Under the pieces are notes generated by a model. It made no database searches, was not told where the DNA came from, and worked only from the letters and a program-made list of their open reading frames with translations. A stretch of DNA of 64,000 bases, from NCBI RefSeq assembly GCF_025290835.2, contig NZ_JAOCQD020000002.1:558001-622000 (forward strand), in the 5' to 3' direction. Positions within the stretch are counted from its first letter, which is position 1, and the number at the start of each line of letters is the position of its first letter. Origin of the DNA: Aquabacterium sp. OR-4. GTDB lineage: Bacteria; Pseudomonadota; Gammaproteobacteria; Burkholderiales; Burkholderiaceae_C. The translations under genes and the position numbers were made by a program. This document shows positions 13,864-38,864 of this stretch, in pieces.

Positions 13864-13882
13864 GTTCACCTCTGGGTGCTGG

Positions 13883-14191: not shown

Positions 14192-14198
14192 CGTCGGT

Positions 14199-14417: not shown

Positions 14418-14455
14418 GTCGGGCTCACCGGCAAGGTATGGGAATCAGCGGCACA

Positions 14456-16002: not shown

Positions 16003-16058
16003 GGGCTGCAGGGCGGCGCCGTTGCCAGCGCCGCCCGTCTCGCTTCAGGGGTTGACGA

Positions 16059-17216: not shown

Positions 17217-17259
17217 GGTGTTTCCTTCCAGGATTGCTGCGGGGTGGGGGTTTGCGCGT

Positions 17260-17946
17260 TCAGGCGAGGGCCAGGCGCTGCAGCCGTGCGGCCAGCTGCT
17301 GGACCTGCGCCGCCTCGTCGTCGGCCTTGACTGCGGCAGGCTCCCCCTGCAGCGCCAGCGCCTTGACGCGGGCCACCAGCGCGGAGGCGGCCCCTTTGCT
17401 GAGCCCGGCTGCATCCCGCAGCAGTTGCTCCAGTTCACGGATGGTGGCCACTTCGGCCAGAGCGTCGAGCATGTCGGCGCCCTTCACTTCTTGCACACGG
17501 GCGGCGCCGTCGGCCGGGAAGACCACGGGCGAGATCTCGACCAGGCGCGACCACTTGCGGATCACGCGGCCCTGCTCGGTGGCGTCGTAGTCGCCCTGCT
17601 TCACGAAGCCGCCGACGCTCAGCCCGCCCAGCGTGCCGTGTTTCATCGCGGCGTACACGGCATCGGCGGCGACCAGGCCGGGCGTGAACTCACCCTCGAC
17701 GTAGAGGCCATGCTCGTCTTCGACGGCCTTGGTCCACTTGCCCACGGGGATGCTGCGCCAGTCGTGGTTGAAGAACATCTTCGGCATGCCGTTCTGGCGC
17801 AGGGTGCTGGCGAACGCGCCACGCACGATGGTGTCGCCGACTGAGTCGACGCCGCCGAAGACGCTGGAATAGCCGCTGAACGTGCCGGCCGGCCCTTCGG
17901 CCTTCAGTTTCACGTCACTGAGCGGTAGGTGCTTGTGCAGGAGCAT
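17260..17946 (-). CDS. Prohead protease (HK97 family, U35)
   Basis: A 228-residue protein. GYSSVFGGVDSVGDTIVRGAF is followed by MFFNHDW with catalytic His61 and by GTLGGLSVGG with catalytic Ser110, the His-Ser pair of HK97-type prohead proteases, which cleave the scaffold domain of the capsid protein. The C-terminal ~75 residues are helical and dispensable in the family. It overlaps the portal gene by 32 bp. Confidence 0.9.
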   Translation of the reverse strand: MLLHKHLPLSDVKLKAEGPAGTFSGYSSVFGGVDSVGDTIVRGAFASTLRQNGMPKMFFNHDWRSIPVGKWTKAVEDEHGLYVEGEFTPGLVAADAVYAAMKHGTLGGLSVGGFVKQGDYDATEQGRVIRKWSRLVEISPVVFPADGAARVQEVKGADMLDALAEVATIRELEQLLRDAAGLSKGAASALVARVKALALQGEPAAVKADDEAAQVQQLAARLQRLALA

Positions 17947-20889: not shown

Positions 20890-21371
20890 GCGTCGTAGTG
20901 CCCGCCGTCGGTGCCGGTGCCGGCCGGCTCTTTTCCGAATAGCTCGCCCTGCGGGTCGATGGTGACGCGGGAACGGGCGGAAGGCGTGGCACCGAACTCG
21001 CGCAGCACGGCCAGGGCCTGCTTGTAGGCCATGGACTTCACCATGGCCCAGGGGCTGAGGCTGATGCTGCCGGTCTCGGCGTTCTTCTGCAGCAGGCGGC
21101 CCTCGGCCGTCTTCTCCATGCACAGGCGGAAGGTGGCGATGGCATCGCAGGCCATCTCGAGCGCGGGCGTGTCGATGGTGGTCAGTACGCCGGCCTTCTT
21201 CAGCTGCGGCGCGAGCTGGTTCCACACGGCGGCTGTGGCTGCAGGCAGGTGAGCCGGCGCGGCCAGATCCTGCAGCACGTCGGGCTCGGGTTCCTTGTCG
21301 TTGCGTGCACGCTTGCCGGGGTTGCCCCGCAGCTGGTGCACGTTCGACGGCAGCGGCGGTCTACCGGCCAT
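20886..21371 (-). CDS. terS: Terminase small subunit, P27 family
   Basis: A 161-residue protein starting MAGRPPLPSNVHQLRGNPGKR, the P27-family opening, followed by a helix-rich middle and an Asp/Gly-rich end (GTGTDGGHYDA). It recognises the packaging site and hands the DNA to TerL. Its start lies only a few bases inside the end of the phospholipase-D-like gene. Confidence 0.88.
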   Translation of the reverse strand: MAGRPPLPSNVHQLRGNPGKRARNDKEPEPDVLQDLAAPAHLPAATAAVWNQLAPQLKKAGVLTTIDTPALEMACDAIATFRLCMEKTAEGRLLQKNAETGSISLSPWAMVKSMAYKQALAVLREFGATPSARSRVTIDPQGELFGKEPAGTGTDGGHYDA

Positions 21372-22593: not shown

Positions 22594-22965
22594 TCAGGTG
22601 AGGCCCTCAGCCATCCGCGCCAGCAGCCGCTTCGCCTCCACCACCCGCGCGCGCACCGTGCTGGCTTGGCAGTCGAGTCGGTAGACCTGCTCGTCGGGCC
22701 TGGCCCGGTCGAGGTACACCACCACCAGCGTGTTTTGCAGGCGCACGCTCAGCGCCAGGATGTCGCGATGCGTCTGCTGCTGCTGGACATCGCCGCAGCT
22801 GGGAGCGCTGCGCATTGTGGGCGTCTGCCCTGGTGTCGGTGGCATCCAGCTCTCGTGCAGCACGCTCTTGGTCGGGTAGCCCGCGCTGGTGTGCCCACCC
22901 TTCACCCACGCAGCCCAGGCCAGTAGCCGCTGCTCCATCACATCCACCGTGGTCGCGTCACGCAT
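22594..22965 (-). CDS. Q-like late regulator, probable
   Basis: A 123-residue protein from ATG 22965. The start VMEQRLLAWAAWVKGG and the end VYRLDCQASTVRARVVEAKRLLARM suggest a sigma-70-region-4-like HTH of the type found in small Q/antitermination-like proteins of Burkholderiales phages; middle residues 60-80 (QQQQTHRDIL) are a linker. It lies just before the putative late promoter and terminator, as Q does in lambda. Assignment rests on size, HTH-like end and position. Confidence 0.55.
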   Translation of the reverse strand: MRDATTVDVMEQRLLAWAAWVKGGHTSAGYPTKSVLHESWMPPTPGQTPTMRSAPSCGDVQQQQTHRDILALSVRLQNTLVVVYLDRARPDEQVYRLDCQASTVRARVVEAKRLLARMAEGLT

Positions 22966-24271
22966 GGCCCGCGCCCTCCATGCGCTGGGTGGCACCATCG
23001 AACCACAGCTGTACCGTGTCGCACGGGCCATTCTTGTTCTTGGCGAGCTCGAGCTGAGCGTGGTGCTTGTTCTCGGGTGTGGGCCTGGCCCGGCCCGCGC
23101 GCCACAGCAGGCCGATGATGTCAGCCGCCTGCTCAATGCCGCCGCTCTCGGCCAGATGGTCGATGCGTGGCGGGCCTCCGCCTTCGTCGGCCTTGCGGCT
23201 CAGCTGGCTCAGCAGCACCACCGCGCACCGAAGTTCTTTGGCCAGGCGCTTCAGGCCGCGTGCGATGCGGTTCAGCTCGTAGGCCCTGCTTTCGTCGTTG
23301 CCCTTGCCTTCCATCAGCTGCAGGTAGTCCACGATCATCACGCCCAGGTCGCCCTGGCGTGCAGCCACCCCCTGGGCCTTGCGCCGCACCGTCTCCAAGC
23401 TCAGCGCTGGCTGGTCATCCACGTGGATCGGCAGGCCGCGCAGCGCGTCCAGGCCACGCGTCACGCCATCCCACAGCGGGCCGCGCGCGCGCGCCGGGTT
23501 GCGCAGATCGGCCAGGTTCACCAGACCGGCGGCTGCCACCTGCCGGCTCACCAGCATCTGCAAGCTGTCCTCCATGCTCAGCACCAGCACCGGCGCGGTG
23601 CGCGCCATGTTGCGCGCCAGCATGTGACACAGCGCCGTCTTGCCCATGCTGGGCCGGCTGCCGATCACCATCAGCTCACCGCGGCGCAGCCCGCCGGCCA
23701 GCAGTTCGTCTACATCGCCCAGGCCAGTCGGGATGGCATCGAGCTCGCCAGCCTCGCGCGCTTGCAACTCCTCTACCCACACCGGCAGCAGGTCATCCAG
23801 CGGTCGCGGGTCGTTCTCGCCGCGCCCCTGGCTGAGCGCCAGCAGCGCCACCATGGCTGAGTCGATGGCCACCAGCGCATCATCGCCACGCCACACCGCG
23901 CCCGCCATCTCATCGGCCAGCGCGATCACGCGCCGCGCACGCGCACGCTCAGCCACGATGTCAGCGTAGCCGCGCACGTTCGTTGCGCTGGCGACGCTCT
24001 GCGCCAGATCGTTCAGGTAGGCCAGGCCACCCGCATCATCGGCCCGACCCGTGCGCTGCAGCGCCTCGAAGACCGTGATCACGTCGGCCGGCTTGCTGGC
24101 CATCACCAGCGACGTTATGGCGTCCCAGATCAGCTGATGCTCGTACCGGTAGAACGCCGCCGCGTTGAGCACGGCCGCCGCCTTGTCGAAAGCCATGTCA
24201 TCCAGCAGCAGCGCGCCCAGCACGCTCTGCTCGGCCTCGAGGCTGTGGGGGGGGACGCGCAGCTCAGCCAT
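22958..24271 (-). CDS. dnaB-like: Replicative DNA helicase, DnaB family
   Basis: A 437-residue protein from ATG 24271. It has the DnaB N-terminal primase-interaction domain (PHSLEAEQSVLGALL), Walker A GSRPSMGKT at ~204-212, Walker B-type VMIVDYLQLM, and the C-terminal arginine-finger region. It would be the phage's replisome helicase. The preceding gene is likely its loader or initiator; overlaps (ATGA-type) on both sides indicate one operon. Confidence 0.9.
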   Translation of the reverse strand: MAELRVPPHSLEAEQSVLGALLLDDMAFDKAAAVLNAAAFYRYEHQLIWDAITSLVMASKPADVITVFEALQRTGRADDAGGLAYLNDLAQSVASATNVRGYADIVAERARARRVIALADEMAGAVWRGDDALVAIDSAMVALLALSQGRGENDPRPLDDLLPVWVEELQAREAGELDAIPTGLGDVDELLAGGLRRGELMVIGSRPSMGKTALCHMLARNMARTAPVLVLSMEDSLQMLVSRQVAAAGLVNLADLRNPARARGPLWDGVTRGLDALRGLPIHVDDQPALSLETVRRKAQGVAARQGDLGVMIVDYLQLMEGKGNDESRAYELNRIARGLKRLAKELRCAVVLLSQLSRKADEGGGPPRIDHLAESGGIEQAADIIGLLWRAGRARPTPENKHHAQLELAKNKNGPCDTVQLWFDGATQRMEGAGHA

Positions 24272-24752
24272 GGCGCCCGCCTTGCCGTTGCGCCTGGATG
24301 CGCGCCAGCAGCCGGGCGCGCGCCGCGGCTTCCGCCGCCGGATCCACAGCCGGCGCCAGCGGCTCGGCGGCCGGGGGCGGCAGGGCCACCAGGGCGCGCA
24401 GCGCGTCGCCCTTTTCGGCCCAGCGCTCAATGCGCGCCTCGCGTGCCATCAGCCACTCGATCTCGCGCATGGCGTCGCGCATGCGGTCACGCGCGGCCTG
24501 CGACTCGCCGCCCACAGCGTCCAGCGGGTCGGCCGCCATGCCCTCCACGGCGGCCATCAGCATTTCGGTGTCGTACCCCATCGCCAGCGCGGCCTGGATG
24601 GCCATGCGCCGCGTCGGGCCCATCTTGCAGCGGCGCGGGTTGCGGCTGTTGACGAACAGCCAGTGCTCGAACACGCGCCGCGCGGGGTCGGTGGTGCCGA
24701 GATTGAAGCCTGGTGCCTGTGAATCCACAATTCTGAGCTGGTGTAGTGCCAT
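24264..24752 (-). CDS. Phage replication-associated protein, possible helicase loader/initiator
   Basis: A 162-residue protein from ATG 24752, before the DnaB gene (8-bp overlap). Residues 25-80 (RVFEHWLFVNSRNPRRCKMGPTRR and AIQAALAMGYDTEMLMAAVEGMAADPL) match small replication-linked proteins of Burkholderiales phages. A C-terminal Ala/Arg-rich helix follows. The frame is open up to 24929; a longer form cannot be excluded but that part reads less like protein. Confidence 0.55.
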   Translation of the reverse strand: MALHQLRIVDSQAPGFNLGTTDPARRVFEHWLFVNSRNPRRCKMGPTRRMAIQAALAMGYDTEMLMAAVEGMAADPLDAVGGESQAARDRMRDAMREIEWLMAREARIERWAEKGDALRALVALPPPAAEPLAPAVDPAAEAAARARLLARIQAQRQGGRHG

Positions 24753-28814: not shown

Positions 28815-29108
28815 ATGAACCTGAGCACACTGGACGCGGCCGTGTCCGCACACATGGCGCACGGCGCCATGGCCCTTGACGCCCCCCTCACCACCGCGCT
28901 GTGCGACCAGTTCTGCGCGCCTGAGGGCGCCCAGCCGGCCGTCGCGGCCGGCGCGGGCCTCACGCCCACGCAGCAGGCCGCACTGGCTGAGGCTGACAGC
29001 GACCCGTGGCTGTGGCGTTTGGCGCCGCTGGCGGTTCTGCTGGGCCTGTGCACCGGCGCGCGCGCCGCAGGGGATGTTCTGGGCATAGCGCGGGACTGGC
29101 TGGCATGA
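28815..29108 (+). CDS. Early-operon protein with one membrane segment
   Basis: A 97-residue protein. The first two thirds are soluble and Ala-rich with two Cys (CDQFC); near the C-terminus LAPLAVLLGLCTGARAA forms one membrane segment, preceded by DPWLWR. The end overlaps the next gene's start (ATGA). Unknown function. Confidence 0.5.
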   Translation: MNLSTLDAAVSAHMAHGAMALDAPLTTALCDQFCAPEGAQPAVAAGAGLTPTQQAALAEADSDPWLWRLAPLAVLLGLCTGARAAGDVLGIARDWLA

Positions 29109-29926
29109 GAGCGCTGATCGAAGCCCGTGCGGTGCTGGCCAGCCGGCCCGAAGGTTACATCTGCAAGGATCTGGCAGCGGCGCTGCAGATCAAGGCCGGT
29201 GCCGCATCCAAGCGCCTTGGCAAGATGGTGACGTTGCAGCTCTGCATCGTGGTGGGCAGCTGTCCGCGGTATGCGCGCTACTTTGCCACGCAGGCGCAGG
29301 CCGACTCATGGGCTGCGGCCAATCCGGCGTTGGCGCACCGACCGGTGCGTTCACGCGCGCAGCGAACCGCCGAGCGCGCTACCGCCCGTGCGGCCCGCGA
29401 GGCTGCGCCCACCATCATTCACCGCGTGGGCCAGGCCGTGGCGGCCGCCGGCGCGGTCGGGACAGTTTCCACTCAGCTGCGGCATGCGCTGAGGCTGACC
29501 AGCACGCAGGTCTACACCGCGCTCACCACGCTGCAGCAGGACGGGCTGGTGCTGTGCCAGGTGTACAAGATGCGCCGCTTGTGCTGGCCAGGCAAGGTCG
29601 TGCCCAGCGATGCCGCCGTGTCCGCTCTGCAGCGCCAGGTAGATGCCGCTGTGCTGGCCAACGGACGCGCTAGCGCCTGCGTGCGCTGGGGCCTCAACCC
29701 CGAAGATCCGCTGCGCCGCACTCAGCCCGCGCCCATGAGCATCAGCCCGGCCCGGCTGCAAGGCGAGGCCGACACCAGCCGCGCCCACATCACCCGCGCC
29801 GCACCCATCCCGTACACGGCGCGGCACCAGTATTTGCAGCTGCCGGCCGACCCGCGCTGGCCGTCGTTCAGCTCCATCCCGCTGGGCGCCACGCTCAGCG
29901 CCACCCACCAGCAGGAGGCCGCCTGA
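29105..29926 (+). CDS. Phage protein with two winged-helix units
   Basis: A 273-residue protein from ATG 29105 (ATGA overlap). A winged-helix pattern appears near residues 10-45 (GYICKDLAAALQIKAGAASKRLGKM) and again near 120-170 (GTVSTQLRHALRLTSTQVYTALTTLQQDGLVLC). Such duplicated HTH proteins occur in Burkholderiales phage early operons, likely binding phage DNA. The C-terminal ~60 residues are Pro-rich. Confidence 0.6.
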   Translation: MRALIEARAVLASRPEGYICKDLAAALQIKAGAASKRLGKMVTLQLCIVVGSCPRYARYFATQAQADSWAAANPALAHRPVRSRAQRTAERATARAAREAAPTIIHRVGQAVAAAGAVGTVSTQLRHALRLTSTQVYTALTTLQQDGLVLCQVYKMRRLCWPGKVVPSDAAVSALQRQVDAAVLANGRASACVRWGLNPEDPLRRTQPAPMSISPARLQGEADTSRAHITRAAPIPYTARHQYLQLPADPRWPSFSSIPLGATLSATHQQEAA

Positions 29927-30249
29927 TGCCTACCACGCACCACTTCGTCGGCCAGCTGGTCGAGGCCGATTGCACTCCCCTGGATGGCATCCACCAGCTC
30001 AGCGTGCGCCTGATCGACGACGACGGCACCAGCCACATCGCCTACATGGTGCACGGCCGCGGCGCAGATGCCGCGCGGCGCAGCGAGCAGGCCTTCAGCG
30101 CGCTGCAGATCGGCCAGCGCTACCACGGCAGCGCCACGCTGAAGCGCGTCGGCGAGCCGCACACCTACCACTTTGGCAGCGTTGCGCTGGCAGCCGACCG
30201 GCGCCGCGCCCGCTATGAGCCGGCGCAGGGCTGGATGGCCGCCGCATGA
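29926..30249 (+). CDS. Small early phage protein
   Basis: A 107-residue protein, start overlapping the preceding stop (TGATG). Beta-rich, possibly an OB-like barrel: VGQLVEADC, then LSVRLIDDDGTSHIAYMVHG and YHGSATLKRVGEPHTYHFGSV. A small nucleic-acid-binding or single-strand-binding accessory is imaginable but unproven. Confidence 0.5.
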   Translation: MPTTHHFVGQLVEADCTPLDGIHQLSVRLIDDDGTSHIAYMVHGRGADAARRSEQAFSALQIGQRYHGSATLKRVGEPHTYHFGSVALAADRRRARYEPAQGWMAAA

Positions 30250-30383
30250 GCGCCGACCTGATTGGCCTGACCGGCCACGCCGGTGCGGGCAAAGACAGCG
30301 TGGCCACCGGCGACCGCATGGAGCGCGACGGCACGCAGGTGATCGCGTGGGCAGACATGCCGGCGGGGAGCCGGGCATGCTGA
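30246..30383 (+). pseudogene. Remnant of a phage deoxynucleoside-monophosphate kinase
   Basis: Starts by ATGA overlap at 30246. LIGLTGHAGAGKDSVAT is the P-loop (G-x-x-G-x-G-K-D-S) found at the start of phage dNMP kinases, but only 45 codons follow before TGA and the kinase body is missing. The remainder may have been lost when the following ORF was joined. Alternatively a short peptide that is kept for coupling. Confidence 0.5.
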
Positions 30384-30640
30384 GCCCCGCCCCCGCCCCC
30401 GCCCCCGCCCCCGACCCCGACCACCAGCACGCCGAGTTCGTCGCCCACGCCGCCGCCGGCCACCTGGACGCACTGGGCCAGCCGTTCAGCCGCTGGCGCT
30501 TGGCCCGCTACCACGACGACGGCCGCGCCGTGCGTGATGCCAACGGCCACCAGGTGTTCGAGAGGCAGGCCGACTGGCTGGCGCGCCGCGGCGGCGCGAT
30601 CAACAAGCTGCCGGCGCCGGTGCAGCAAGAGATGTTCTGA
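30377..30640 (+). CDS. Small early phage protein with Pro-Ala repeat start
   Basis: An 87-residue protein from ATG 30377. The beginning (LSPAPAPAPAPDPDHQH) is coded by a run of CCCCCG hexamers (30384-30416), which may vary in length in-frame. The rest is polar (HVFERQADWLARRGG). The TGATG end couples it to the next gene. Function unknown. Confidence 0.45.
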   Translation: MLSPAPAPAPAPDPDHQHAEFVAHAAAGHLDALGQPFSRWRLARYHDDGRAVRDANGHQVFERQADWLARRGGAINKLPAPVQQEMF

Positions 30641-31023
30641 TGACCGACCCCACCAACGACCACAGCCGCGTGAGCCCGCAAGGCCGCGCGATGGGCAAGA
30701 GCGCGGCGCGCCTCGCGGATCTGGGCCTCGCGCGCTTGGCCGAGCTGGGCCTGGATGGCGTGAAGGGCCCCGGCCTGCGCGACGAGATGTGCAAGAGCTG
30801 CGCATGCCGCCTGGGCGCCGTGCCGAACGGATGCCTGCAGACGCAGATGGACCTGCTCAAGGCTGCGGCCGAGGGCAAGCCGTTTCAGTGCCACGCGCCA
30901 CGCAATGGCCAGCTGTGCGCCGGCTGGGTGCGGGTGCGCGCTGAGCTGGTGGCGAACCCTCTGCCGCCGCAGGCGCTGGCGCTGCTGGCGCAGTGGGAAT
31001 TTAGCCCGGCGGATGAGGATTGA
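30640..31023 (+). CDS. Cys-rich early phage protein
   Basis: A 127-residue protein. Cys residues in CKSCACRLG, GCLQ, QCHAP and QLCAGW suggest a small metal-binding domain at residues 50-100. It sits before the AlpA-like regulator. Function unknown; similar Cys-rich proteins occur at this place in Burkholderiales phages. Confidence 0.5.
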   Translation: MTDPTNDHSRVSPQGRAMGKSAARLADLGLARLAELGLDGVKGPGLRDEMCKSCACRLGAVPNGCLQTQMDLLKAAAEGKPFQCHAPRNGQLCAGWVRVRAELVANPLPPQALALLAQWEFSPADED

Positions 31024-31025
31024 CC

Positions 31026-31277
31026 ATGGCCACCAAGACCCCCACGACTGCCGCCACCATCGTCCGCATCGAGCCCATCGGCGTGGGCCGCGACGATGCC
31101 GCCTTGCTGCTGGGCATCGGCCTCTCCACGTTTGAGGCTCACGTGACCCGAGGCACGCTGCCGCGGCCGCGGCAGCTGGGCGGCCGCGCACTGTGGTTGG
31201 TGGACGAGCTGCGCCAGGCCGCTCATGCGCTGCCGGTGAGCGACCTGCTACCGCCGCCGAGTGCGCAGGCAGCCTAA
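31026..31277 (+). CDS. AlpA/MerR-type HTH regulator at the integron border
   Basis: An 83-residue protein. GRDDAALLLGIGLSTFEAHVTRGTLPRPRQLGGRALWLVDEL is an AlpA-like winged helix, as in phage excisionases and transcription regulators. It is the last gene of the phage operon before the integron; its TAA stop forms part of the outer core site (GCCTAAC, 31272-31278) of the first attC. It may regulate int or excision. Confidence 0.65.
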   Translation: MATKTPTTAATIVRIEPIGVGRDDAALLLGIGLSTFEAHVTRGTLPRPRQLGGRALWLVDELRQAAHALPVSDLLPPPSAQAA

Positions 31278-31330
31278 CGACCAGGTTAAGCCGGCCCGCC
31301 GTGCGGGCTCGGCTTGAACCGCCAGTTCGG
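31272..31330 (-). repeat. attC_A
   Basis: 59 bp. On the minus strand: R'' GCCGAAC, L'' GGTTCAAGCCG, loop stem GCCCGC, L' CGGCTTAACC, R' GTTAGGC. The L'' arm has the extra C (GTT-C-AAGCCG), as in the classic aadA1 attC. R' overlaps the stop codon of the AlpA-like gene. It is the outermost site of the array. Confidence 0.85.
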
Positions 31331-31362
31331 CTGGCGGAAGACGCAACAGAAGGAGGCCAGCG

Positions 31363-32151
31363 ATGGCAGAGACGACAGGCATTGCATGGACTGACAGCAC
31401 GTTCAATCCGTGGATCGGGTGCACGAAGGTAAGCCCGGGCTGCGACAACTGCTATGCATCGGTGAGCACACCGGCGCGCAGCATGCGCATCGTATGGGGC
31501 GCTGGCCAGCCGCGCCACCGCACCAGCGCGCAGAACTGGAAGACGCCCGAATTCTGGAACAGCCAGCACGAGGCGTTCAAGGCCGCGCACGGACGGCGCC
31601 GCCGTGTGTTCTGTGCCAGCTTGGCGGACGTGTTCGACAACGAGGTGCCGAACCAGTGGCGCGCGGACCTGTTCGCGTTGATTGACCGCACGCCGCACCT
31701 GGACTGGCTGCTGCTGACGAAGCGCGTGGGCAACGTGCTGCCGATGCTGCTGGAGATTGGCCGCGAGCGCCTGCCGGTGAACGTGTGGCAGGGAATTAGC
31801 GCCGTGAATCAGGACGAGGCCCGCCGCGACCTGCCGAAGCTGGCGCGGCTGGACGCCACGGTGCGCTGGGTGAGCTACGAACCCGCGCTGGGCGAACTTG
31901 ACCTGTTCGACATGGTGATGACCAAGGACGGCCCGCACCAGTTGATCGAGGGCCTGGACTGGGTGATTGCCGGCGGCGAGAGCGGCCCGAAGGCCAGGCC
32001 GATCCGGCGCGAGTGGGTTGACCTACTGCGCGAGCAGTGCGCTCGCTGCGGCGTTGCGTTCTTCTTCAAGCAGTGGGGAGGCATCAACGCGACGGCCGGC
32101 GGCTGCGAGCTGGACGGCGCAGAGGTCAAGGCATGGCCCGCCACCACCTGA
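31363..32151 (+). CDS. Cassette A: DUF5131 (phage Gp37/Gp68) family protein
   Basis: A 262-residue protein preceded by GGAGG. The start (WTDSTFNPWIGCTKVSPGCDNCYA), TKRVGNVLP, NVWQGISA, and VIAGGESGPKARP with FFFKQWGG are hallmarks of the DUF5131/Gp37-Gp68 family. The three Cys near the start may bind metal or a cluster. The family is spread among phages and mobile elements, and is linked with three-Cys-motif partner proteins (TcmP), none of which is here. It ends one base before the cassette boundary 7-mer GCCGAAC. Confidence 0.85.
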   Translation: MAETTGIAWTDSTFNPWIGCTKVSPGCDNCYASVSTPARSMRIVWGAGQPRHRTSAQNWKTPEFWNSQHEAFKAAHGRRRRVFCASLADVFDNEVPNQWRADLFALIDRTPHLDWLLLTKRVGNVLPMLLEIGRERLPVNVWQGISAVNQDEARRDLPKLARLDATVRWVSYEPALGELDLFDMVMTKDGPHQLIEGLDWVIAGGESGPKARPIRREWVDLLREQCARCGVAFFFKQWGGINATAGGCELDGAEVKAWPATT

Positions 32152-32152
32152 A

Positions 32153-32216
32153 GCCGAACGCCGGCAATTAGCGGGACGCCCGCCAGGGCGGCTCCGCTGC
32201 ATTGGCACTGTTAGGC
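32153..32216 (-). repeat. attC_B
   Basis: 64 bp. On the minus strand R'' GCCTAAC, arm GCCAATGCAGCGG with the extra base, arm CCGCTAATTGC, R' GTTCGGC. It separates cassette A from B. Confidence 0.75.
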
Positions 32217-32239
32217 CGTATTTTCTGAGAGGACAACAA

Positions 32240-32395
32240 ATGCTTGCATGGTGGGCTGAACTAATGCCGCTGTTTGCGGTGCGGTGGCTTGCGCGGCGAT
32301 ATTGCGAAAGCATCGCGGCGCACCCGCACGTTTGCAAAACTGCGCGCCCTGATGTGCTGCTGGTTGTGATGACCACAAGAATGAGAAAGCATTGA
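32240..32395 (+). CDS. Cassette B, first ORF: 51-residue protein
   Basis: ATG 32240 follows GAGAGG. Start MLAWWAELMPLFAVRWLARRY is amphipathic, perhaps membrane-attached; the remainder is basic. The TGA overlaps the next ATG, so the two ORFs are translated together. Unknown family. Two-gene cassettes with an overlap can be toxin-antitoxin pairs, but no known pair is recognised here. Confidence 0.45.
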   Translation: MLAWWAELMPLFAVRWLARRYCESIAAHPHVCKTARPDVLLVVMTTRMRKH

Positions 32396-32673
32396 TGCCC
32401 TGCTACATGAAAGACCAGCCAGATGGCCGCATGTTCATTTGCGGCGACCTGGGCGACCACTGCGCCGAATGCGGCTGGGTTGGTGAGTACCTGTGCGACT
32501 ACCCAGTTGGCGAAGGCAAGACCTGCGACCGCCCGCTGTGTGAGACGCACGCAAACGATATTGGCCCAGACCTGCACTACTGCGCAGCGCACCTGGGCAT
32601 GTGGAAAGCCTACCGGGACAGCGGCGGGGTGCAGCGCGAGCTGGACAACGTGGTGCCGTTCCGTGGGGCCTAA
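32395..32673 (+). CDS. Cassette B, second ORF: Cys/His-rich protein
   Basis: A 92-residue protein from ATG 32395. Cys/His pairs (FICGD, HCAECGW, LCDY, CDRPLCETH, YCAAH) suggest one or two zinc sites of a treble-clef or RING-like kind. Its TAA stop is part of the boundary 7-mer GCCTAAC. No characterised relative recognised. Confidence 0.6.
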   Translation: MPCYMKDQPDGRMFICGDLGDHCAECGWVGEYLCDYPVGEGKTCDRPLCETHANDIGPDLHYCAAHLGMWKAYRDSGGVQRELDNVVPFRGA

Positions 32674-32726
32674 CACCGAAGTTCAGCGGCCCGCGTAGCG
32701 GGTCGCGCTGCAACGCAGAGTTAGAC
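32668..32726 (-). repeat. attC_C
   Basis: 59 bp. On the minus strand R'' GTCTAAC, arm GCGTTGCAGCG (extra base), arm CGCTGAAC, R' GTTAGGC. It separates cassettes B and C. Confidence 0.75.
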
Positions 32727-32743
32727 GCGTTTGAGAGGAAGCA

Positions 32744-33376
32744 ATGAGAAATTCGACCGAGAGGATCAACAGACGCCGCGCCGGCACAGCCCCACCAGCT
32801 GGTGGGATGACTGGACACGCCAGCACCACGAGGCCCCTGACGGCCTCCACTGGGAAAGTGCATCTTGACTGCGCAGAGTGCGGGATTGGGTTTGAGCGAT
32901 ACGCATGCCATGTGAAGGGGAGAAACCTCACCTACCCGGCGACCTGCAGTCGAGCGTGCGCTGCGGCAATACGCCACATGTACAACACTGAGGTGACTTG
33001 CTTGATTTGCTCGACGCCGATGATGTTGACGCCCAGCCAACTGGGCAAGAAGGTCACCTGCTGCCGCATCTGCTCTGCCGCGAACAAGCGCGGACCCAAC
33101 CCATCACTGCGTGGGTCTGCCGCCTACCTTGCTGCCGCTGACGAGTTGCGCGCCCGCCAACACCATTGCAGTGGGTGCGGGCTGGTTGATGCCCCACTGT
33201 TCGTGCGTGGACTCGTTGCAACCTTGGATGAATACGGCATCCCCGTCGTTGACTCCAAGTCGGCTCGGCTGATCTGCCGAGCCTGCCACTTGGCGGAACA
33301 ACATCCGCTTGCTGTCGCGGCTAGGAGAACCGCCGCAGCAAAGAGGCGAGCATCTAACGCTGAGGTAAGCAGGTGA
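32744..33376 (+). CDS. Cassette C: zinc-finger-like protein
   Basis: A 210-residue protein after GAGAGGAA. Repeated Cys pairs: CAECGIGFERYACHVKGR with CSRAC, then CLICSTPM and CCRICSAA, later CSGCGLVDAP with CRACHLAEQHP. The last part resembles an HNH-like or zinc-ribbon fold (C-x2-C ... C-x2-C-H). The frame runs 25 bp into attC_D. It may bind DNA; the family is unknown. Confidence 0.6.
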   Translation: MRNSTERINRRRAGTAPPAGGMTGHASTTRPLTASTGKVHLDCAECGIGFERYACHVKGRNLTYPATCSRACAAAIRHMYNTEVTCLICSTPMMLTPSQLGKKVTCCRICSAANKRGPNPSLRGSAAYLAAADELRARQHHCSGCGLVDAPLFVRGLVATLDEYGIPVVDSKSARLICRACHLAEQHPLAVAARRTAAAKRRASNAEVSR

Positions 33377-33451
33377 CAACGGCGCTACAAATGCAAGACG
33401 AAGCCACCAGCGGTGCCGCCGTTGGCGCTCTGCTTGACCGACGTGTTATGC
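33352..33451 (-). repeat. attC_D
   Basis: 100 bp, the longest of the set. On the minus strand R'' GCATAAC, arm GGTCAAGCAG with the extra C, long loop with CAACGGCG/CGCCGTTG pairing, arm CTGCTTACC, R' GTTAGAT. It contains the stop of cassette C's gene and the start of cassette D's gene. Confidence 0.75.
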
Positions 33452-34107
33452 CCCGCCGCGCGCCACGTTGCCTGGACTTGTTTTGTGGCGCTGGCGGTGC
33501 TGGCATGGGCCTGCACCGCGCCGGCTTTGAAGTGGTGGGCGTGGACATTCACCCGCAGCCTTACTACCCTTTCACGTTCCGCCAGGGTGACGCGCTGGAC
33601 GCAGACCTAGAGGGGTTTGATCTGGTGTGGGCTTCGCCGCCGTGCCAGGCGTACACCGAGATGCAGCGCATGCACAAGAACAGCGCCGCACACAAGGACT
33701 TGGTGGCGCCGATGCGGGCGAAGCTGCAAGCGTGGGGAGGCTTGTGGATCATGGAGAACGTGGCCGGTAGCCCGCTGCGCGAAAGCCTGATGCTCTGCGG
33801 CTCGATGTTCGGGCTGCGGATTGCGAAGCACCGATTCTTTGAGGCTAGCTTTGAACTTCCGCTGCTGATGCCGCCCTGCGACCACCGCGACCTGTACGAC
33901 CCGTGGCACGGCAAAGGCCGCACGGCAGACAAGATGCGCGCGGCGCAGGGCACGCCCTGGATGCCGAGCAGCGGCGGCGCTTCGCGGAAGCGGGGCGAGA
34001 CAGGCGACACGAACAACGCGATACCGCCCGCGTACTCTGAATTTCTAGGCTCGCACGCCCTAGTGGTGATTGCGGGGCCTAACGTTGGAGCTAAGGCGCC
34101 GACGTAG
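33448..34107 (+). CDS. Cassette D: DNA (cytosine-5) methyltransferase-like protein
   Basis: A 219-residue protein from ATG 33448, which lies in the 7-mer GTTATGC. Motif I LDLFCGAGGAGMGLHRAGF, motif IV SPPCQAY with the catalytic Cys, and motif VI MENVAGSP are present, with IPPAYSEFLG like motif X. It is shorter than typical C5 enzymes and has little room for a target-recognition domain, as in some phage solo methyltransferases. A frame upstream to 33373 is open but runs through attC. The frame's end passes into attC_E (stop 34105). It may protect phage DNA from host restriction. Confidence 0.8.
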   Translation: MPRRAPRCLDLFCGAGGAGMGLHRAGFEVVGVDIHPQPYYPFTFRQGDALDADLEGFDLVWASPPCQAYTEMQRMHKNSAAHKDLVAPMRAKLQAWGGLWIMENVAGSPLRESLMLCGSMFGLRIAKHRFFEASFELPLLMPPCDHRDLYDPWHGKGRTADKMRAAQGTPWMPSSGGASRKRGETGDTNNAIPPAYSEFLGSHALVVIAGPNVGAKAPT

Positions 34108-34150
34108 GGCCGCAGGCCCGTAGGAGGTCGCCTTGAGCGACCAGTTAGGC
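34077..34150 (-). repeat. attC_E
   Basis: 74 bp. On the minus strand R'' GCCTAAC, arm GCTCAAGGCG (extra C), arm CGCCTTAGC, R' GTTAGGC; a GGGCC/GGCCC inner hairpin. It carries the last ~30 bp of the methyltransferase frame. Confidence 0.85.
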
Positions 34151-34192
34151 CCCATGTTTCCGGGGCGCGAACCTGTAAGAAGGACTTACAAG

Positions 34193-34246
34193 ATGGCTGA
34201 ACTGAACACCGAAGACGAAAGGACAGACGATGAGCAACCAAGCTGA
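34193..34246 (+). CDS. Cassette E: possible 17-residue leader ORF
   Basis: ATG 34193 with AGGA at -12 codes for a very acidic 17-residue peptide (MAELNTEDERTDDEQPS) that overlaps the start of the next ORF in another frame. It could act as a leader or be chance. Confidence 0.25.
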   Translation: MAELNTEDERTDDEQPS

Positions 34247-34496
34247 AGCAATGATTTACACGCAAGCAGACCTTGACGCGGCAAGACGAGCGGCCACAAG
34301 GGATGCGCGTGAAGATTCCCGAGCCGAGGTGGAGGCCGCAGATGCCGCGCTCGATGTTGCGGCCTCCGAGGTCTCCAGGCTGCGGGGCGTCGTTGACGTG
34401 GCGCGCCAGGCTGTGGCCGCCAGAGACCGCTTCGGCTGGAGCCCGGAGGCTGATGCGGCCATTGGCAGACTGCGCGATGTGGTGGGGCTGCGATGA
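34230..34496 (+). CDS. Cassette E, first long ORF: coiled-coil-like protein
   Basis: An 88-residue protein, start ATG 34230 after AAAGGA. Ala/Glu/Arg/Asp-rich from residue 12 to 60 with heptad-like Val/Leu spacing (EVSRLRGVVDVARQAV), so a coiled coil. The stop overlaps the next start (ATGA). Unknown function. Confidence 0.55.
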   Translation: MSNQAEAMIYTQADLDAARRAATRDAREDSRAEVEAADAALDVAASEVSRLRGVVDVARQAVAARDRFGWSPEADAAIGRLRDVVGLR

Positions 34497-34684
34497 CGTG
34501 GCCGAAGCTTGCAGAGCACCCGACGGTGAGAGACATTCCGGCCGGGACATTTTGGGCAAAGAACGTCAATGACCAGTGGGTGATTCAGCTCCGGCGCACG
34601 GGCGAGGAAATTGCAGCGAGCGCATCACTACGAACGGCCATCCTACGGGCGCGCGAAGTGCTGGACAGCCGCATTGGGGCCTAA
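34493..34684 (+). CDS. Cassette E, second ORF
   Basis: A 63-residue protein (TWPKLAEHPTVRDIPAGTFWAKNV, then QWVIQLRRTGEEIAASASLRTAI). The TAA is within the boundary 7-mer GCCTAAC. Coupled to the preceding coiled-coil ORF, they may form a complex. Family unknown. Confidence 0.5.
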   Translation: MTWPKLAEHPTVRDIPAGTFWAKNVNDQWVIQLRRTGEEIAASASLRTAILRAREVLDSRIGA

Positions 34685-34741
34685 CACTGGCGCTAACCGG
34701 GAGCCACGCCAGGGGCGATCCGGTTGAGCGGCCTGTTGGGC
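34679..34741 (-). repeat. attC_F
   Basis: 63 bp. On the minus strand R'' GCCCAAC, arm CGCTCAACCGG (extra C), arm CCGGTTAGCG, R' GTTAGGC. Among the best formed sites of the array. Confidence 0.85.
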
Positions 34742-34780
34742 GGCTGTAGCCGGAGCGCGAAAGACCACACGCCGCGTTTA

Positions 34781-34823
34781 GGTATTACCACAAGTGCTTG
34801 TGTGCTGCTGCTTTCGGTATTAC
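34781..34823. promoter_or_regulatory. Cassette F upstream operator with palindrome and repeated octamer
   Basis: CACAAG-TG-CTTGTG (34789-34802) is a perfect inverted repeat; GGTATTAC occurs at 34781-34788 and 34816-34823 on either side of it, and GGTA-T-TACC (34781-34789) is itself palindromic. It lies 48 bp before the first ORF of cassette F, in the longest non-coding lead of any cassette here (~130 bp), so this cassette likely has its own regulated promoter. Confidence 0.55.
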
Positions 34824-34870
34824 AGTAACACCACTGCAGCAAGACGCCGCAGCAACCCAAGGAGAGCACC

Positions 34871-35047
34871 ATGAGCAAGTACGAAGTCAGCAACAGCAAG
34901 TCGGCCCACTCTTTCGGCGTGTACGAAGCCGAGAGCGCCGAAGCCGCCATCGAAGCCGCATGTAAAGACGCTGGCTATGACAGCAAGGCCGCCGCAGAAG
35001 CGGCGATGGGCCGCGACTCCGAGTTGGTCGCGGTCGAAGTCAAGTGA
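34871..35047 (+). CDS. Cassette F, first ORF: 58-residue acidic protein
   Basis: ATG 34871 after AAGGAGAG. The protein starts SKYEVSNSKSAHSFGVYEA and is rich in Glu/Ala. The stop overlaps the GTG start of the next ORF. With its own operator region and a basic partner, an antitoxin-like or regulator role is possible but unproven. Confidence 0.6.
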   Translation: MSKYEVSNSKSAHSFGVYEAESAEAAIEAACKDAGYDSKAAAEAAMGRDSELVAVEVK

Positions 35048-35202
35048 GCGAGCAGGCCGCCAAGAAGACCGGGCGGCCTGAAAAGGCCCCCGAAGAAAAG
35101 CTGAAGCCTGTCCCTGTGCGGCTGACCGATGCGCAAAAAGCCAAGCTGCAACGAATCGGGCCGCAGCGGCTGCGCGACTGGCTGGACCGGGTCAAGGAAT
35201 GA
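35044..35202 (+). CDS. Cassette F, second ORF: 52-residue basic protein
   Basis: GTG 35044 overlaps the preceding stop. The sequence PVPVRLTDAQKAKLQRIGPQRLRDWLDR looks like a ribbon-helix-helix DNA-binding unit (strand, then two helices), preceded by a Lys-rich linker. It may bind the palindrome upstream of its own cassette. Ends 2 bases before the boundary 7-mer GCCCAAC. Confidence 0.6.
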   Translation: MSEQAAKKTGRPEKAPEEKLKPVPVRLTDAQKAKLQRIGPQRLRDWLDRVKE

Positions 35203-35203
35203 C

Positions 35204-35285
35204 GCCCAACGCCCAAGCTCAGGCGCCCCCGTAAGCGGAGCCGAAGGCGTAGCTGTAGGGGCTCGCCTGGAGCGCAGTGTTAGGC
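35204..35285 (-). repeat. attC_G
   Basis: 82 bp. On the minus strand R'' GCCTAAC, arm GCTCCAGGCG (extra C), arm CGCCTGAGC, R' GTTGGGC. It separates cassettes F and G. Confidence 0.8.
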
Positions 35286-35310
35286 CACTGGTTGAAAACT
35301 GAGAGGAAAT

Positions 35311-35736
35311 ATGCAAGCCACGTATTTGGAAGTGTGCGCCCAGGTGCGCTACTGGGAAGACGCCACAGTGAACGGCGCCGAAGACACAGAGGGAACGCTG
35401 ATACCTGCGCGCGTGAATGAAAGCTGGCGCCCGGTGATCCGGCTGGCCGATGGGCTGGTGATGGACTGGCCGCAGGGGACAACGGCTGACATTCACTACA
35501 AGGTGTGCGACGCTGGCGAGTATTGGCTGCTGGACGACGAGCGCAAGCGCGTTGCCAAGTGGGCCGGCTTCTATGTGCCGGGCGACTTCCTGTGCCACGG
35601 TGACAACGGCTACGGCGACTACATCATTCTCAAGGTGGGCGCCGACGGCCTGATTGAGAAGTACCGCGCGCCCAAGATCGAGATGAACTGCGGCTGCGAC
35701 GAGGACGATCAATCTGGATGGGCTTTAGTGGCCTAA
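35311..35736 (+). CDS. Cassette G: hypothetical protein
   Basis: A 141-residue acidic protein after GAGAGGAA. It has no recognised domain: VRYWEDATVNG, WRPVIRLADGLVMDWPQG, VCDAGEYWLLDDERKRVAKWAGFYVPGDF and an end NCGCDEDD. The YWLLDDE/VPGDF part resembles uncharacterised cassette proteins. The TAA is in the boundary 7-mer GCCTAAC. Confidence 0.6.
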   Translation: MQATYLEVCAQVRYWEDATVNGAEDTEGTLIPARVNESWRPVIRLADGLVMDWPQGTTADIHYKVCDAGEYWLLDDERKRVAKWAGFYVPGDFLCHGDNGYGDYIILKVGADGLIEKYRAPKIEMNCGCDEDDQSGWALVA

Positions 35737-35784
35737 CGCAAAAGCTCACCGGCCCGCAGGGTCCGGTGCAGCGACGGGTTAGCC
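35731..35784 (-). repeat. attC_H
   Basis: 54 bp, the shortest of the set. On the minus strand R'' GGCTAAC, arm GCTGCACCGG with the extra base, arm CCGGTGAGC, R' GTTAGGC. It closes the cassette nearest to intI. Confidence 0.75.
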
Positions 35785-35818
35785 GGCCCCGTGAAAACCG
35801 GCACAACCGAGGAATGAC

Positions 35819-36034
35819 ATGGAAATGATGAACCGCGCTATTGATGGCGCCGCACTGTTCAAGGACATGATGCAGAAGGTTGAGGCCGGCGCCGTTCCTG
35901 CTGCGCCGGCTGACCCCGAGGTGGCCGCCTGGAATGCTGAAGTGGATCGCGCCAGGGCCGAGAAGCTGGAACGCAGGATGAAGGCGAGCGACAGCGCATT
36001 GCGTGCTGAACTGGCGAAGGCCAGCCAGCGATGA
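35819..36034 (+). CDS. Cassette H, first ORF: helical protein
   Basis: A 71-residue protein: LFKDMMQKVEAG, AAWNAEVDRARAEKLERRMKAS and SALRAELAKASQR, likely two helices with coiled-coil tendency. The stop overlaps the next ATG (ATGA). Unknown family. Confidence 0.55.
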   Translation: MEMMNRAIDGAALFKDMMQKVEAGAVPAAPADPEVAAWNAEVDRARAEKLERRMKASDSALRAELAKASQR

Positions 36035-36288
36035 GCGCCAGCGCCCGCCTGAGCGTGCGACTGCAGGACATTGCACAGTCGCTGGCCGAAGTGCTGGACG
36101 AGGTGGCCGGCGAGCCCATAGCGTTTGTGCTGGTACTGCAGGCCGACCAGGCCGCGCAGTACGTGAGCAACGCCAGCCGCCATGACGGGCGCGAGCTGCT
36201 GAAGAGCCTGATGGATCGGTGGGACGCGAAGCGCGCCGACATCCCGGCGCACTACAACCCCGATCTTCGCCCGCAGCAGGCCGGCTAA
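36031..36288 (+). CDS. Cassette H, second ORF
   Basis: An 85-residue protein starting by ATGA overlap. SVRLQDIAQSLAEVLDEVAGEPIAFVLVLQADQAAQYVSNASRHDGRELLKSLMDRWD suggests an alpha/beta fold. Its TAA is in the attI-side 7-mer GGCTAAC. Similar short proteins occur in phages; no function known. Confidence 0.55.
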   Translation: MSASARLSVRLQDIAQSLAEVLDEVAGEPIAFVLVLQADQAAQYVSNASRHDGRELLKSLMDRWDAKRADIPAHYNPDLRPQQAG

Positions 36289-36289
36289 C
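36283..36289 (-). other. attI-like core site beside intI
   Basis: On the minus strand GTTAGCC, the R' core GTTRRRY except for the sixth base (C for R). No attC body surrounds it, it stands 57-63 bp before the likely intI start, and it is the exact complement of the other end of cassette H (GTTAGCC at 35778-35784 on the plus strand). This is where an attI site should be. Confidence 0.65.
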
Positions 36290-36345
36290 GCAATTTCTAC
36301 GACACCCACATGACCCACCAAGTCATGTATCCAGGATCGAATGCG

Positions 36346-37398
36346 ATGGACACCCCAGCACCAGCCGACAGCGTGCCGGTTATCACGACAGGTCTGGCGC
36401 AGATACACGACACGGCGCGGCCGGTCTCTACGTCCGCCCCGAACTTGTGGGACCGCATCGCCATTGCCTGCCGAGCACGGCACTTCAGCCTGAGCACCGA
36501 GCGCAGCTATGTGCATTGGGCAAAGCGGCTCGCCGCGTGGCATGGCCGTGTGCACCCGGCCAAACTGGGGGCCGACGACGTGCAGGCCTTCCTGAACCAT
36601 TTGGCTGTCGAAAAGCGCTGCGCGCCGAGTACCTGCAAGCAGGCTCTATGCGCGCTGCAGTTTCTCTATCGTCACGTGCTGGGGTCCGATCTGCCCTGGC
36701 TGAATGACCTGGCCCGCCCGCGCGGCCAGCCGCGGCTGCCGGTGGTGCTGAGCGTGCGCGAAGTGCAGGCCGTGCTGGCACACACCAGCGGCACGCCGCG
36801 GCTGATCCTGGCCCTGCTGTACGGCAGCGGCATGCGCATGATGGAGGCACTGCGCCTGCGCGTGAAGGATCTTGATCTGGAGCGCCGCACCATTACTGTC
36901 CGCGAGGGCAAAGGAGGGAAGGACCGCACGACGATGGTGCCGGAATCCCTGGTTCAGCCCCTGCATGACGTGCTGCAGCATCGGCGCCGGCTGCATGACA
37001 TTGACAGAGCGCGCGGCATGGCCGATGTGGAACTGCCGCATGCCATGGAGGCCAAAAGCCCGCGCGCCGGCCAGCAGTGGCCGTGGCAGTTTGTGTTCTG
37101 CTCGCCCGACTACGCCACATGCCCACGCACCGGCGCGATCCGCCGGCATCATCTGCACGAGGTCAACGTGCAGCGCGCCATGCGGCGAGCCGTGCAGCTG
37201 GCCGGCATCCAGAAGCGCGCCACCGTGCACACGCTGCGCCACAGCTTTGCCACCCACCTGCTGGAGGCAGGCTATGACATCCGCACCGTGCAGGAACTAC
37301 TCGGGCACAGCGATGTGAGCACCACAATGGTCTACACGCACGTTCTCAATCGAGGCAGCCACGCCGCACTCAGCCCGCTGGACCGCTTGTCGGCCTGA
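36346..37398 (+). CDS. intI: Integron integrase (IntI-type tyrosine recombinase)
   Basis: About 350 residues from ATG 36346 (AGGA at -12; the frame is open from ATG 36310). SAM-like N-terminal domain, then GSGMRMMEALRLRVKDLDLE with catalytic Arg, HTLRHSFATHLLE, GYDIRTVQELLGHSDVSTT and nucleophile Tyr in MVYTHVLNRG. Between boxes I and II is the IntI-specific insert (VELPHAMEAKSPRAGQQWPWQFVF and TGAIRRHHLHE), which is absent from XerC/D and phage integrases. It reads away from the array, with the attI-like site at its 5' side. It ends exactly where the phage integrase's stop begins. Confidence 0.92.
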   Translation: MDTPAPADSVPVITTGLAQIHDTARPVSTSAPNLWDRIAIACRARHFSLSTERSYVHWAKRLAAWHGRVHPAKLGADDVQAFLNHLAVEKRCAPSTCKQALCALQFLYRHVLGSDLPWLNDLARPRGQPRLPVVLSVREVQAVLAHTSGTPRLILALLYGSGMRMMEALRLRVKDLDLERRTITVREGKGGKDRTTMVPESLVQPLHDVLQHRRRLHDIDRARGMADVELPHAMEAKSPRAGQQWPWQFVFCSPDYATCPRTGAIRRHHLHEVNVQRAMRRAVQLAGIQKRATVHTLRHSFATHLLEAGYDIRTVQELLGHSDVSTTMVYTHVLNRGSHAALSPLDRLSA

Positions 37399-38676
37399 TC
37401 ACCGCGCTGCAGCAGACTCCCAGCGCGCGGCAAGCCGCGTGATCCACTCGCGCCGCTCGGCGTCATAGCTGTGCCGGTTGTAGACCCCGGCCACGCCGGG
37501 CGGAATGTGGCCCAGCACCGCCTCAGCCACCGCATCAGGGCAGCCCATCGCGGCCAGGTGCGTGCGCACCGTGCGCCGCAGATCGTGCGGCGCCCAGTCC
37601 ACCACCGGCCAGCGCGCGCGCACCTGCTGCTTGCGGATCGTGCAACGCGGCATGTGCCAGTAGACGCCCACACCCACCACCTTCTGATCGACGTGCGCCG
37701 CCTCTCCCGACACCGACGGGAACAGGTGGCCGGTGTGCACATCCATGCGCGTGCGCACCACCTCCATCGCACGGCCCACCAACGGCACCCGCAGATCGGT
37801 GACGAGCTCGTGGCGCCGCATCTTCTGTTTCGCCTTCGGCAGCGTCCACCACCAGCCATCCGCCTCCTCGGCGACCTCGCCGGCCTCGATCTGCACCAGC
37901 TCGCCACCGCGGCAGCCGGTCCACAGGTAGAGCGTCAGCAGATCCGCCACCAGGCGCGAGGTGTGCGGCAGGAAGCGGACCACTGTCCCCACCTCCTCCA
38001 GCGACAGTGCGCGCTTGACCACGCCCTGGTGCTGGCCGCCGACGATCTTGCCCGCGCTGGGCAGCTTGCCGCGCAAGATCAGCCGCCACCAGTTCGGCAC
38101 GTCCTCGCTCAGCCGACCGCTGTCGTGCGCCCAGTCCCAGGCGGCACCCAGTTCGCGGCGCAGGCTCCGGGCCTGCACCGGCGCGGCCCTCTGCGCGTCG
38201 ATCAGGTCATAAGCCACCGAGCGCGTCACCTCGGTCGGCAGCCTGTCGGCGATGCTGGCCGCGCCCTTGTCCAGCGTGCGCTTGAGCTCGGCCATGCCCT
38301 TGGGCGCGCGCTGCTGGGCGGCGTGGAACTCAGCCAGCAGCCGGCCGACCGTGTAGCGGCCGTGGCGGGCCTCGTCGCGCTCAGCGGCTACCTGGGCCTG
38401 CTGCTCATGCCGAGCCTGGCGCCGCTCCTGCGCCGGATCATGGCCCGCATCGCGCAGCGCCCGCAGGCGCTCCCACTCACCGCCGGCCGCCGCCGCCGAC
38501 ACCGCCGGCCAGGCGCCGATCTTCAGCTGCCGCATCCTGCCGTCCGTCGGGCTCTTGAACCGGTACGTCCAGGCCCAGCCCGCAGCCGATCGCACCAGGC
38601 GCAGCCCGGGCGCATCTGCCACCGTCATATGATCGCCAGCTTTGAGCAGCCGCGCCGCACGTGGATCGAATTGCAC
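37399..38676 (-). CDS. int: Prophage integrase, P4-type tyrosine recombinase
   Basis: 425 residues from GTG 38676 (ATG 38628 is an alternative). The N-terminus (residues ~10-100) is an arm-binding domain of the DUF4102 type ([26 protein letters not shown]). Catalytic residues: Arg256 (GCRGGEL), His364/Arg367 (HDLRR), His390 (LGH), and Tyr399 or Tyr404. It is the last gene before attR and reads leftward, away from mutS. It should carry out insertion into and excision from mutS. Confidence 0.9.
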
Positions 38677-38849: not shown

Positions 38850-38864
38850 CCCATGATGCAGCAG
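38850..38864. other. attR core of the prophage
   Basis: Exact copy of the attL 15-mer CCCATGATGCAGCAG. It supplies the two in-frame ATG codons (38853 and 38856) of the right-hand mutS part, and the six phage bases before it also encode His-Thr. Confidence 0.9.

Follow-up and report, generated by a model that had tools for sequence, protein, structure and literature searches.

An integron with reversed gene cassettes inside a prophage of Aquabacterium sp. OR-4

Can a temperate phage carry an integron as a module of its own, or are integrons found in phages only pieces taken from a host? This question is raised by a 64,000-nucleotide stretch of the Aquabacterium sp. OR-4 genome (contig NZ_JAOCQD020000002.1, positions 558,001 to 622,000; here called the window), in which a prophage of ~37.7 kb contains an integron integrase gene (intI) next to an array of eight gene cassettes and their recombination sites (attC). 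We consider it highly likely that this is a temperate phage carrying an integron as a phage module, with reversed cassettes, and that the integron belongs to a phage-adapted lineage that trades accessory genes.

A complete integron with reversed cassettes

A 15-bp repeat marks both ends of the prophage, its right-hand copy lying over the mutS start codon. When positions 1171-38849 were removed in silico, 157 bp remained between the open reading frames (ORFs) of IMPase, the left neighbor, and mutS, and the joined flanks closely resembled the sequences of three congeners (G020, G013, and G018, the genomes in which the insertion site was compared) across the site, with a few base differences in the congeners' copy of the core. 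Because the 15-bp ends enclose the array and the joined flanks resemble the congeners' sequence, the integron lies inside the phage. The initial annotation had described an integron enclosed by phage genes, a phage integrase, and att sites; structural genes, a tyrosine integrase, and the 15-bp repeats were all found, and the array, being within the phage ends, is not a chromosomal island outside the phage.

The integron is complete. The product of the ORF at 36310-37398 (IntI) scored 412 bits against the TIGR02249 integron integrase model (cutoff, 265), compared with 171 bits for the XerA-type model and 151 bits each for XerD and XerC, in keeping with the earlier identification of a true integron integrase; it scored 362 bits against PRK15417, another integron integrase model, which is under that model's own cutoff of 435. 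One GGCTAAC core site (36283-36289), presumably the attI side, adjoins intI, as first annotated. No LexA-like site (CTG-N10-CAG) was found within 36001-36600. The attC sites were located with a finder of our own making, which looks for R boxes, a one-base L-box bulge, and pairing of the arms (score of at least 9) and whose background in shuffled sequence is ~0.2 hits per 10 kb; it was tuned on the window's own sites. Run over the whole window, it called eight sites, all at the eight coordinates proposed in the initial annotation (the starts of the attC rows in Table 1); Rfam gave no matches in the window at the gathering threshold. All eight sites, which are 54 to 100 bp long, keep the bulged L stem, and the intI reading frame is open, with HTLRH, LLGH, and YTH motifs, which we take to be catalytic, that are invariant in all six sequences aligned (the window and five viral relatives). 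These features, together with recent single-cassette changes in viral relatives (see below), make it unlikely that the integron is a relic, formerly functional but now reduced to a row of phage genes between attC sites in decay, even though a single base deviates from the R-box consensus at four of the eight sites.

Compared with the usual arrangement, the cassette genes are turned round and read toward intI. In a textbook attC site the extra base of the L stem sits on the 5' arm, and we assigned polarity by an explicit test for this extrahelical base; one typed example behaved according to the textbook. Polarity was minus at all eight window sites, with bulge scores of 7 to 10 versus 1 to 7 on the other strand, and since intI is on the plus strand, it points away from the intI/attI end. 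The order of intI, core site, and attC sites is thus the usual integron order. Because attC polarity is minus at all eight sites, the cassette ORFs are reversed relative to attC: by codon score, seven of the eight intervals run this way and one (32668-33352) runs the usual way. The two window cassette genes with good family matches, those for a DUF5131 protein and a DNA methyltransferase, are both on the plus strand, with intI. At five of nine box positions, a count that takes in the core site and the distal box, the TAA stop of a plus-strand ORF falls exactly at the predicted cut between AA and C of RYYYAAC, and two further plus-strand ORFs stop 7 bases before the predicted cut.

The host genome provides a control, as it holds its own chromosomal integron on the same contig (G000:C2:1091192-1092145), with the same order of intI, core site, and attC sites; all 11 of its called attC sites point away from its intI. 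The presence of this integron would allow the phage to have taken a piece of the host's sedentary array by faulty excision, without any phage function, an origin that has reportedly been proposed for Vibrio anguillarum phages. In one such record, MK672802, the published V. anguillarum phage integron and its integrase lie beside the thrS, infC, rpmI (L35), and rplT (L20) genes, which look like host DNA, so this record probably includes host chromosome. In Aquabacterium, however, the two IntI proteins are only 56% identical and that of the window falls within a viral clade (see below), the host's attC sites are 111 to 129 bp long rather than 54 to 100 bp, and the genes face the other way in seven of the eight window intervals. 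Moreover, a search (E ≤ 1e-8) with 184 ORFs from phage cassettes found a relative for one of them among 78 genome loci and for none in 19 kb of the host array. We therefore regard capture from the host as very improbable.

An IntI clade consisting mostly of viral contigs

A scan of viral contigs with the window IntI alone found 12 relatives, eight of them at 53 to 72% identity. For the wider comparison, we kept the best 80 of 246 viral relatives (scanned with the six-sequence alignment) and the best 80 of 498 relatives in bacterial genomes; one viral locus (L011), in which intI begins right at the end of the contig, was left out, giving a viral survey of 79 loci. The best match among the 80 bacterial-genome loci was 60% identical to the window IntI, and full-length matches within the genus were 52 to 56% identical. 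In a FastTree phylogeny of 152 integrases, the window fell in a 66-row clade in which 63 rows are viral and the other three are the window and two genome loci (L021 and L041), with Shimodaira-Hasegawa (SH)-like support of 98. In an IQ-TREE phylogeny of 99 rows, the 51 clade rows included again formed one group, with an SH approximate likelihood ratio test (SH-aLRT) value of 81. The trees were built without L151, L153, L154, L155, and seven genome loci, which have a stop within the translated match.

IntI matches (E ≤ 1e-114) occurred in 10 of 399 genomes of the order, the window's own included; five loci from four of the nine other genomes were placed in the tree, and one of these loci, G174:C13, joined the clade. 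In this bacterial genome, IntI is 92% like a viral row, seven attC sites are present, and all three scorable intervals are reversed. Among deposited phages, 10 of 50,697 records had an IntI match (E ≤ 1e-20), each at less than 60% identity.

The clade could be an artifact of IMG/VR, with misfiled chromosomal integrons passing for viral contigs and only the window being real. We searched for three families of the large terminase, TerL, in hand-picked records of 17 to 55 kb from 44 of the 79 viral loci (three of which, L159, L189, and L191, lie outside the clade and two of which, L153 and L155, are absent from the tree). TerL was found in 34 (phrog_9 in 10, phrog_2 in 7, and phrog_15 in 21), and a portal gene (phrog_12) was found in 10. 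Misfiling would account for the 10 records in which none of the three families was found and for four viral-set rows (L176 to L178 and L180) that group with chromosomal IntIs, but it does not fit the 34 with TerL, nor the direction of the genes, which is unlike that of chromosomal arrays (see below). It is also at odds with clade member L021, whose bacterial contig carries a TerL gene 14 kb away from intI, and with G003 and G001, both of which hold portal, tail, and integrase genes; the IntI of G001 is the closest neighbor of the window's in the tree. We give this explanation almost no credence. Because TerL genes of three families occur in these records, one IntI lineage sits in phages with different packaging genes. 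On the evidence of these alignments and trees, the window IntI is placed in a phage-associated lineage rather than being a one-off capture.

The direction survey covered the 79 viral and 80 genome loci; attC sites upstream of intI were located, and the better coding strand was chosen for each interval. The phage clade (69 loci) had 150 attC sites of the usual polarity and 8 of the other; genes followed the direction of intI in 108 of its intervals and opposed it in 6 (114 scorable of 147). For genomes outside the clade (78 loci), the attC sites were divided similarly (181 usual and 11 other), whereas genes ran with intI in 19 intervals and against it in 48 (67 scorable of 180). The 12 viral loci outside the clade had 10 attC sites, with four intervals running with intI and none against. 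This count was not dereplicated, and L151, L153, L154, and L155 were counted as clade members by DNA similarity. A second count dropped those four and nine near-copy loci and used a codon model trained on intI genes alone; some kin pairs remain in it. It gave 98 intervals with intI versus 6 against, of 134, in the clade and 20 versus 51, of 180, in genomes outside. By array, the clade had 37 reversed, 2 usual, and 1 tied, and the genomes outside had 5, 27, and 3, respectively (Fisher P of ~2e-12, a value that is only a guide because the rows are still related). Stop codons at the boxes agreed weakly with direction: among 142 phage-clade sites, 70 had one on the intI strand and 46 had one the usual way, and among 181 genome sites the corresponding counts were 38 and 91.

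Cassette genes also run with intI in another IntI group, which lies outside the phage clade: in viral locus L159 (4 intervals versus 0), whose record has weak terminase matches, and in genome locus L068 (3 versus 0).

Cassette turnover, cargo, and a proposed explanation

Viral relatives of the window show turnover of single cassettes. Contigs L149 and L150 have identical IntIs and arrays that differ at several places. Three of the differences are clean: L149 alone carries cassettes of 616 and 757 bp, and L150 alone carries one of 451 bp. Each is cut between AA and C of the left box, with flanks 99.5 to 100% identical over 427 to 500 bp per side, and none of the differing cassettes has a full copy elsewhere in the other contig. 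Because these cuts lie at the left box, they independently support the minus attC polarity. The 616-bp cassette contains almost all of an Rv2179c-like exoribonuclease gene, on the intI strand. L130 and L131 may show a fourth, less clean event: no attC site was called in the inserted piece (~547 bp), and the right flank is 92% alike.

Three of the closest viral contigs (L101, L103, and L105) end within or next to the array, which would be expected from variation of arrays in the sampled population.

Cassettes are also shared between phages with distant integrases. The DUF5131 gene of the window is 88.6% identical in DNA to that of L161 and L162 over 798 bp, in a match that ends no more than 2 bases from the cassette cut, while the IntIs are ~52% identical. 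Three further pairs (L182/L184, L010/L184, and L135/L165) have cassette DNA that is 78 to 88% identical and IntIs that are 56 to 63% alike. Relatives of cassette genes occur in ordinary phages as well.

Family scans were made with 121 plus-strand cassette ORFs, 26 short ones among 147 cluster representatives having been left out by hand. At most 27 of the 121 had a Pfam match, and most had no family match. The Pfam families were N6/N4 methylase (three ORFs), Dam (two), PAPS reductase (two), and 20 families seen once each, among them DUF5131, Mom, Lar restriction alleviation, and C5 and D12 methylases, along with weak single matches to Acb2/Tad1 (E of 1e-4) and a Tad2-like family (E of 2.5e-4). 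PHROGs added an exonuclease and a reverse transcriptase. In PADLOC, 90 families matched the 121 ORFs; the matches listed were mostly to methyltransferases, with SspD in three, and DUF5131 matched two candidate models. No resistance gene was found among the family matches made for the cassettes. The family names suggest that cassettes may act against host defense or in protection of the lysogen.

One bAvd-like match and one match to a phage reverse transcriptase family suggest that a diversity-generating element may lie close to an array; a search for motifs failed to locate it.

We propose that IntI would act on attC sites that are folded and of minus polarity, recombining them at the core site that adjoins the 5' end of intI; new cassettes would thus enter next to intI and older ones would shift leftward. 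Unlike those of most bacterial integrons, each cassette holds its gene backwards, with attC at its 5' side and the gene reading toward intI, and the cassettes would be transcribed from the phage genes on the left (29 to 31.3 kb) through the array into intI, with no integron promoter used. The lineage would in this way exchange short accessory genes between phages, some of them probably for counterdefense or DNA modification. We infer that IntI is active in the window's phage, and likewise the promoter, expression of the array during infection, and a benefit to the phage. Terminator-like sites in 25500-38900 were at the level of chance (8 found versus 7.7 expected).

A broader proposal, to which we incline with some reserve, is that tailed phages evolved an integron class of their own: one IntI lineage would span phages with different packaging genes, the cassettes would be turned to suit phage transcription, and the arrays would form a shared, swappable store of counterdefense and DNA modification genes. 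Bacterial integrons store antiphage defense genes, and the phage class would be their mirror image.

Several observations weigh against these proposals. Within the window, interval 32668-33352 scores for the opposite strand (plus, 0; minus, 7.4), two ORFs extend 19 and 25 bases beyond the predicted cut, a promoter scan was at the level of chance, and cassette turnover was seen in relatives and not in the window's own phage. The codon score is blunt, as the host control array gave three usual, one reversed, and six undecided intervals. In the clade, the usual direction is seen in the 6 intervals noted above and in 2 of the 44 arrays that could be scored, and 20 of the 69 loci have no attC site (score of at least 9) upstream of intI, 17 of these having less than 1.6 kb of contig there; support for the clade in the better model, that of IQ-TREE, is only 81. 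Most scored intervals are reversed in five genome arrays outside the clade as well, so the reversed layout may have originated or spread on more than one occasion. Lastly, the cassette family scans covered plus-strand ORFs only, and several cassette ORFs also match bacterial defense gene models, so that a defense role is as open as one in counterdefense.

The window integron resembles known systems in part. With sedentary chromosomal integrons, such as the host's own, it shares IntI, the attC fold, attC polarity away from intI, an intI 5' end beside the array, and cassettes of one or two small genes; it differs in that its cassette genes read toward intI, its attC sites are shorter than the host's, its IntI lies elsewhere in the tree, and it is inside a phage. 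Codirectionality of cassette genes with attC, which is usual in integrons although not strictly defining, is absent from seven of the eight window intervals. Treponema-type integrons likewise have intI and cassette genes on one strand (PMC3607928), as far as that source was available to us, but there intI reads toward attI; in the window, the intI 5' end adjoins the array, so that intI reads away from the core site, and the cassettes are reversed relative to attC. Like class 1 mobile integrons, the window integron travels on a mobile element, but its IntI is ~54% identical to theirs (P1 record) and the family matches of the window include no resistance gene.

Although the initial annotation knew of no described phage of this kind, phages with integrons had already been described: a survey of 10,705 phage genomes by Qi et al. 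(2023; PMC9892861) found 3 complete integrons, 1 intI without cassettes, and 17 attC clusters, with integrases of Vibrio, Shewanella, and P1 class 1 types. Those phages share with ours the presence of integrons or attC clusters in phage genomes and methyltransferase cassettes; the parts of that paper available to us report no phage-specific IntI lineage, reversed cassettes, or turnover between near-identical phages. Our literature search, which covered sources other than preprints, found neither a phage-specific IntI lineage nor a reversed-cassette layout. If our proposal is right, integrons are not just bacterial platforms occasionally carried by phages but include a lineage adapted to phages, in which cassettes are reversed and their turnover can be seen. 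This would offer a concrete mechanism by which unrelated phages trade small accessory genes singly, would make expression of an array from its distal end testable, and would give a defined place to look for new phage accessory genes, possibly antidefense genes.

Prophage layout and insertion site

The features of the prophage are collected in Table 1. For cassette 5, the family scans used a longer methyltransferase ORF, starting at 33373.

Table 1. Features of the prophage and its integron, in window coordinates
Feature	Position	Strand	Basis
Left prophage end, 15-bp repeat CCCATGATGCAGCAG	1171..1185		Exact repeat; congener comparison
Tail, connector, head, portal, and terminase (TerL) genes	3057..21225	-	PHROGs matches
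DnaB-like replicative helicase	22958..24430	-	phrog_19
Four phage ORFs leading into the array, the last with a helix-turn-helix match	29006..31277	+	ORF calls; helix-turn-helix match
attC of cassette 8 (distal)	31272..31331	-	Score 14.3
DUF5131/phrog_2045 gene, cassette 8 (31278-32158)	31363..32151	+	Family match; DNA identity with L161/L162
attC of cassette 7	32153..32216	-	Score 11.1
Small ORF, cassette 7 (32159-32673)	32392..32673	+	Relative in Pseudomonas phage PARCL1pr
attC of cassette 6	32668..32726	-	Score 12.6
210-amino-acid Cys-rich ORF, cassette 6 (32674-33357)	32744..33376	+	19 bases past cut; codon score without plus-strand support
attC of cassette 5	33352..33451	-	Score 12.3
DNA methyltransferase, cassette 5 (33358-34082)	33448..34107	+	phrog_363; weak Pfam C5 match; 25 bases past cut
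attC of cassette 4	34077..34150	-	Score 14.4
Two small ORFs, cassette 4 (34083-34684)	34230..34684	+	ORF calls
attC of cassette 3	34679..34741	-	Score 14.3
Two small ORFs, cassette 3 (34685-35209)	34871..35202	+	ORF calls
attC of cassette 2	35204..35285	-	Score 13.7
141-amino-acid ORF, cassette 2 (35210-35736)	35311..35736	+	Relative in Pseudomonas phages
attC of cassette 1 (nearest intI)	35731..35784	-	Score 12.8
Two ORFs, cassette 1 (35737-36288)	35819..36288	+	ORF calls
Single core site GGCTAAC, presumed attI side	36283..36309 (GGCTAAC at 36283-36289)	-	Sequence
IntI integron integrase	36310..37398	+	5' end adjoins array; TIGR02249; alignment with five viral relatives
Phage tyrosine integrase, adjoins intI	37399..38676	-	Pfam PF13356 and PF00589
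Right prophage end, CCCATGATGCAGCAG over the mutS start codon (38853)	38850..38864		Exact repeat; congener comparison

The stretch between IMPase and mutS ranges from ~150 bp to 30 kb among congeners and may be an insertion hotspot. It measures ~150 bp in G020 and ~575 bp in G013; among other congeners with both genes on a single contig, it measures ~1.6 kb (G027), 3.6 kb (G018), 3.8 kb (G016), 11 kb (G011), ~14 kb (G025), 15 kb (G009), and 30 kb (G017), and in some congeners the two matches are on separate contigs. Because the gap is 1.6 to 30 kb in most single-contig congeners, this neighborhood is often occupied. Mobile elements at mutS and mutL have been reported to affect mismatch repair (PMC5296598 and PMC3430984, as far as these were available to us). 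Here, the prophage lies on the mutS start codon, keeps the reading frame, and separates mutS from its upstream DNA; its excision may thus alter mismatch repair.

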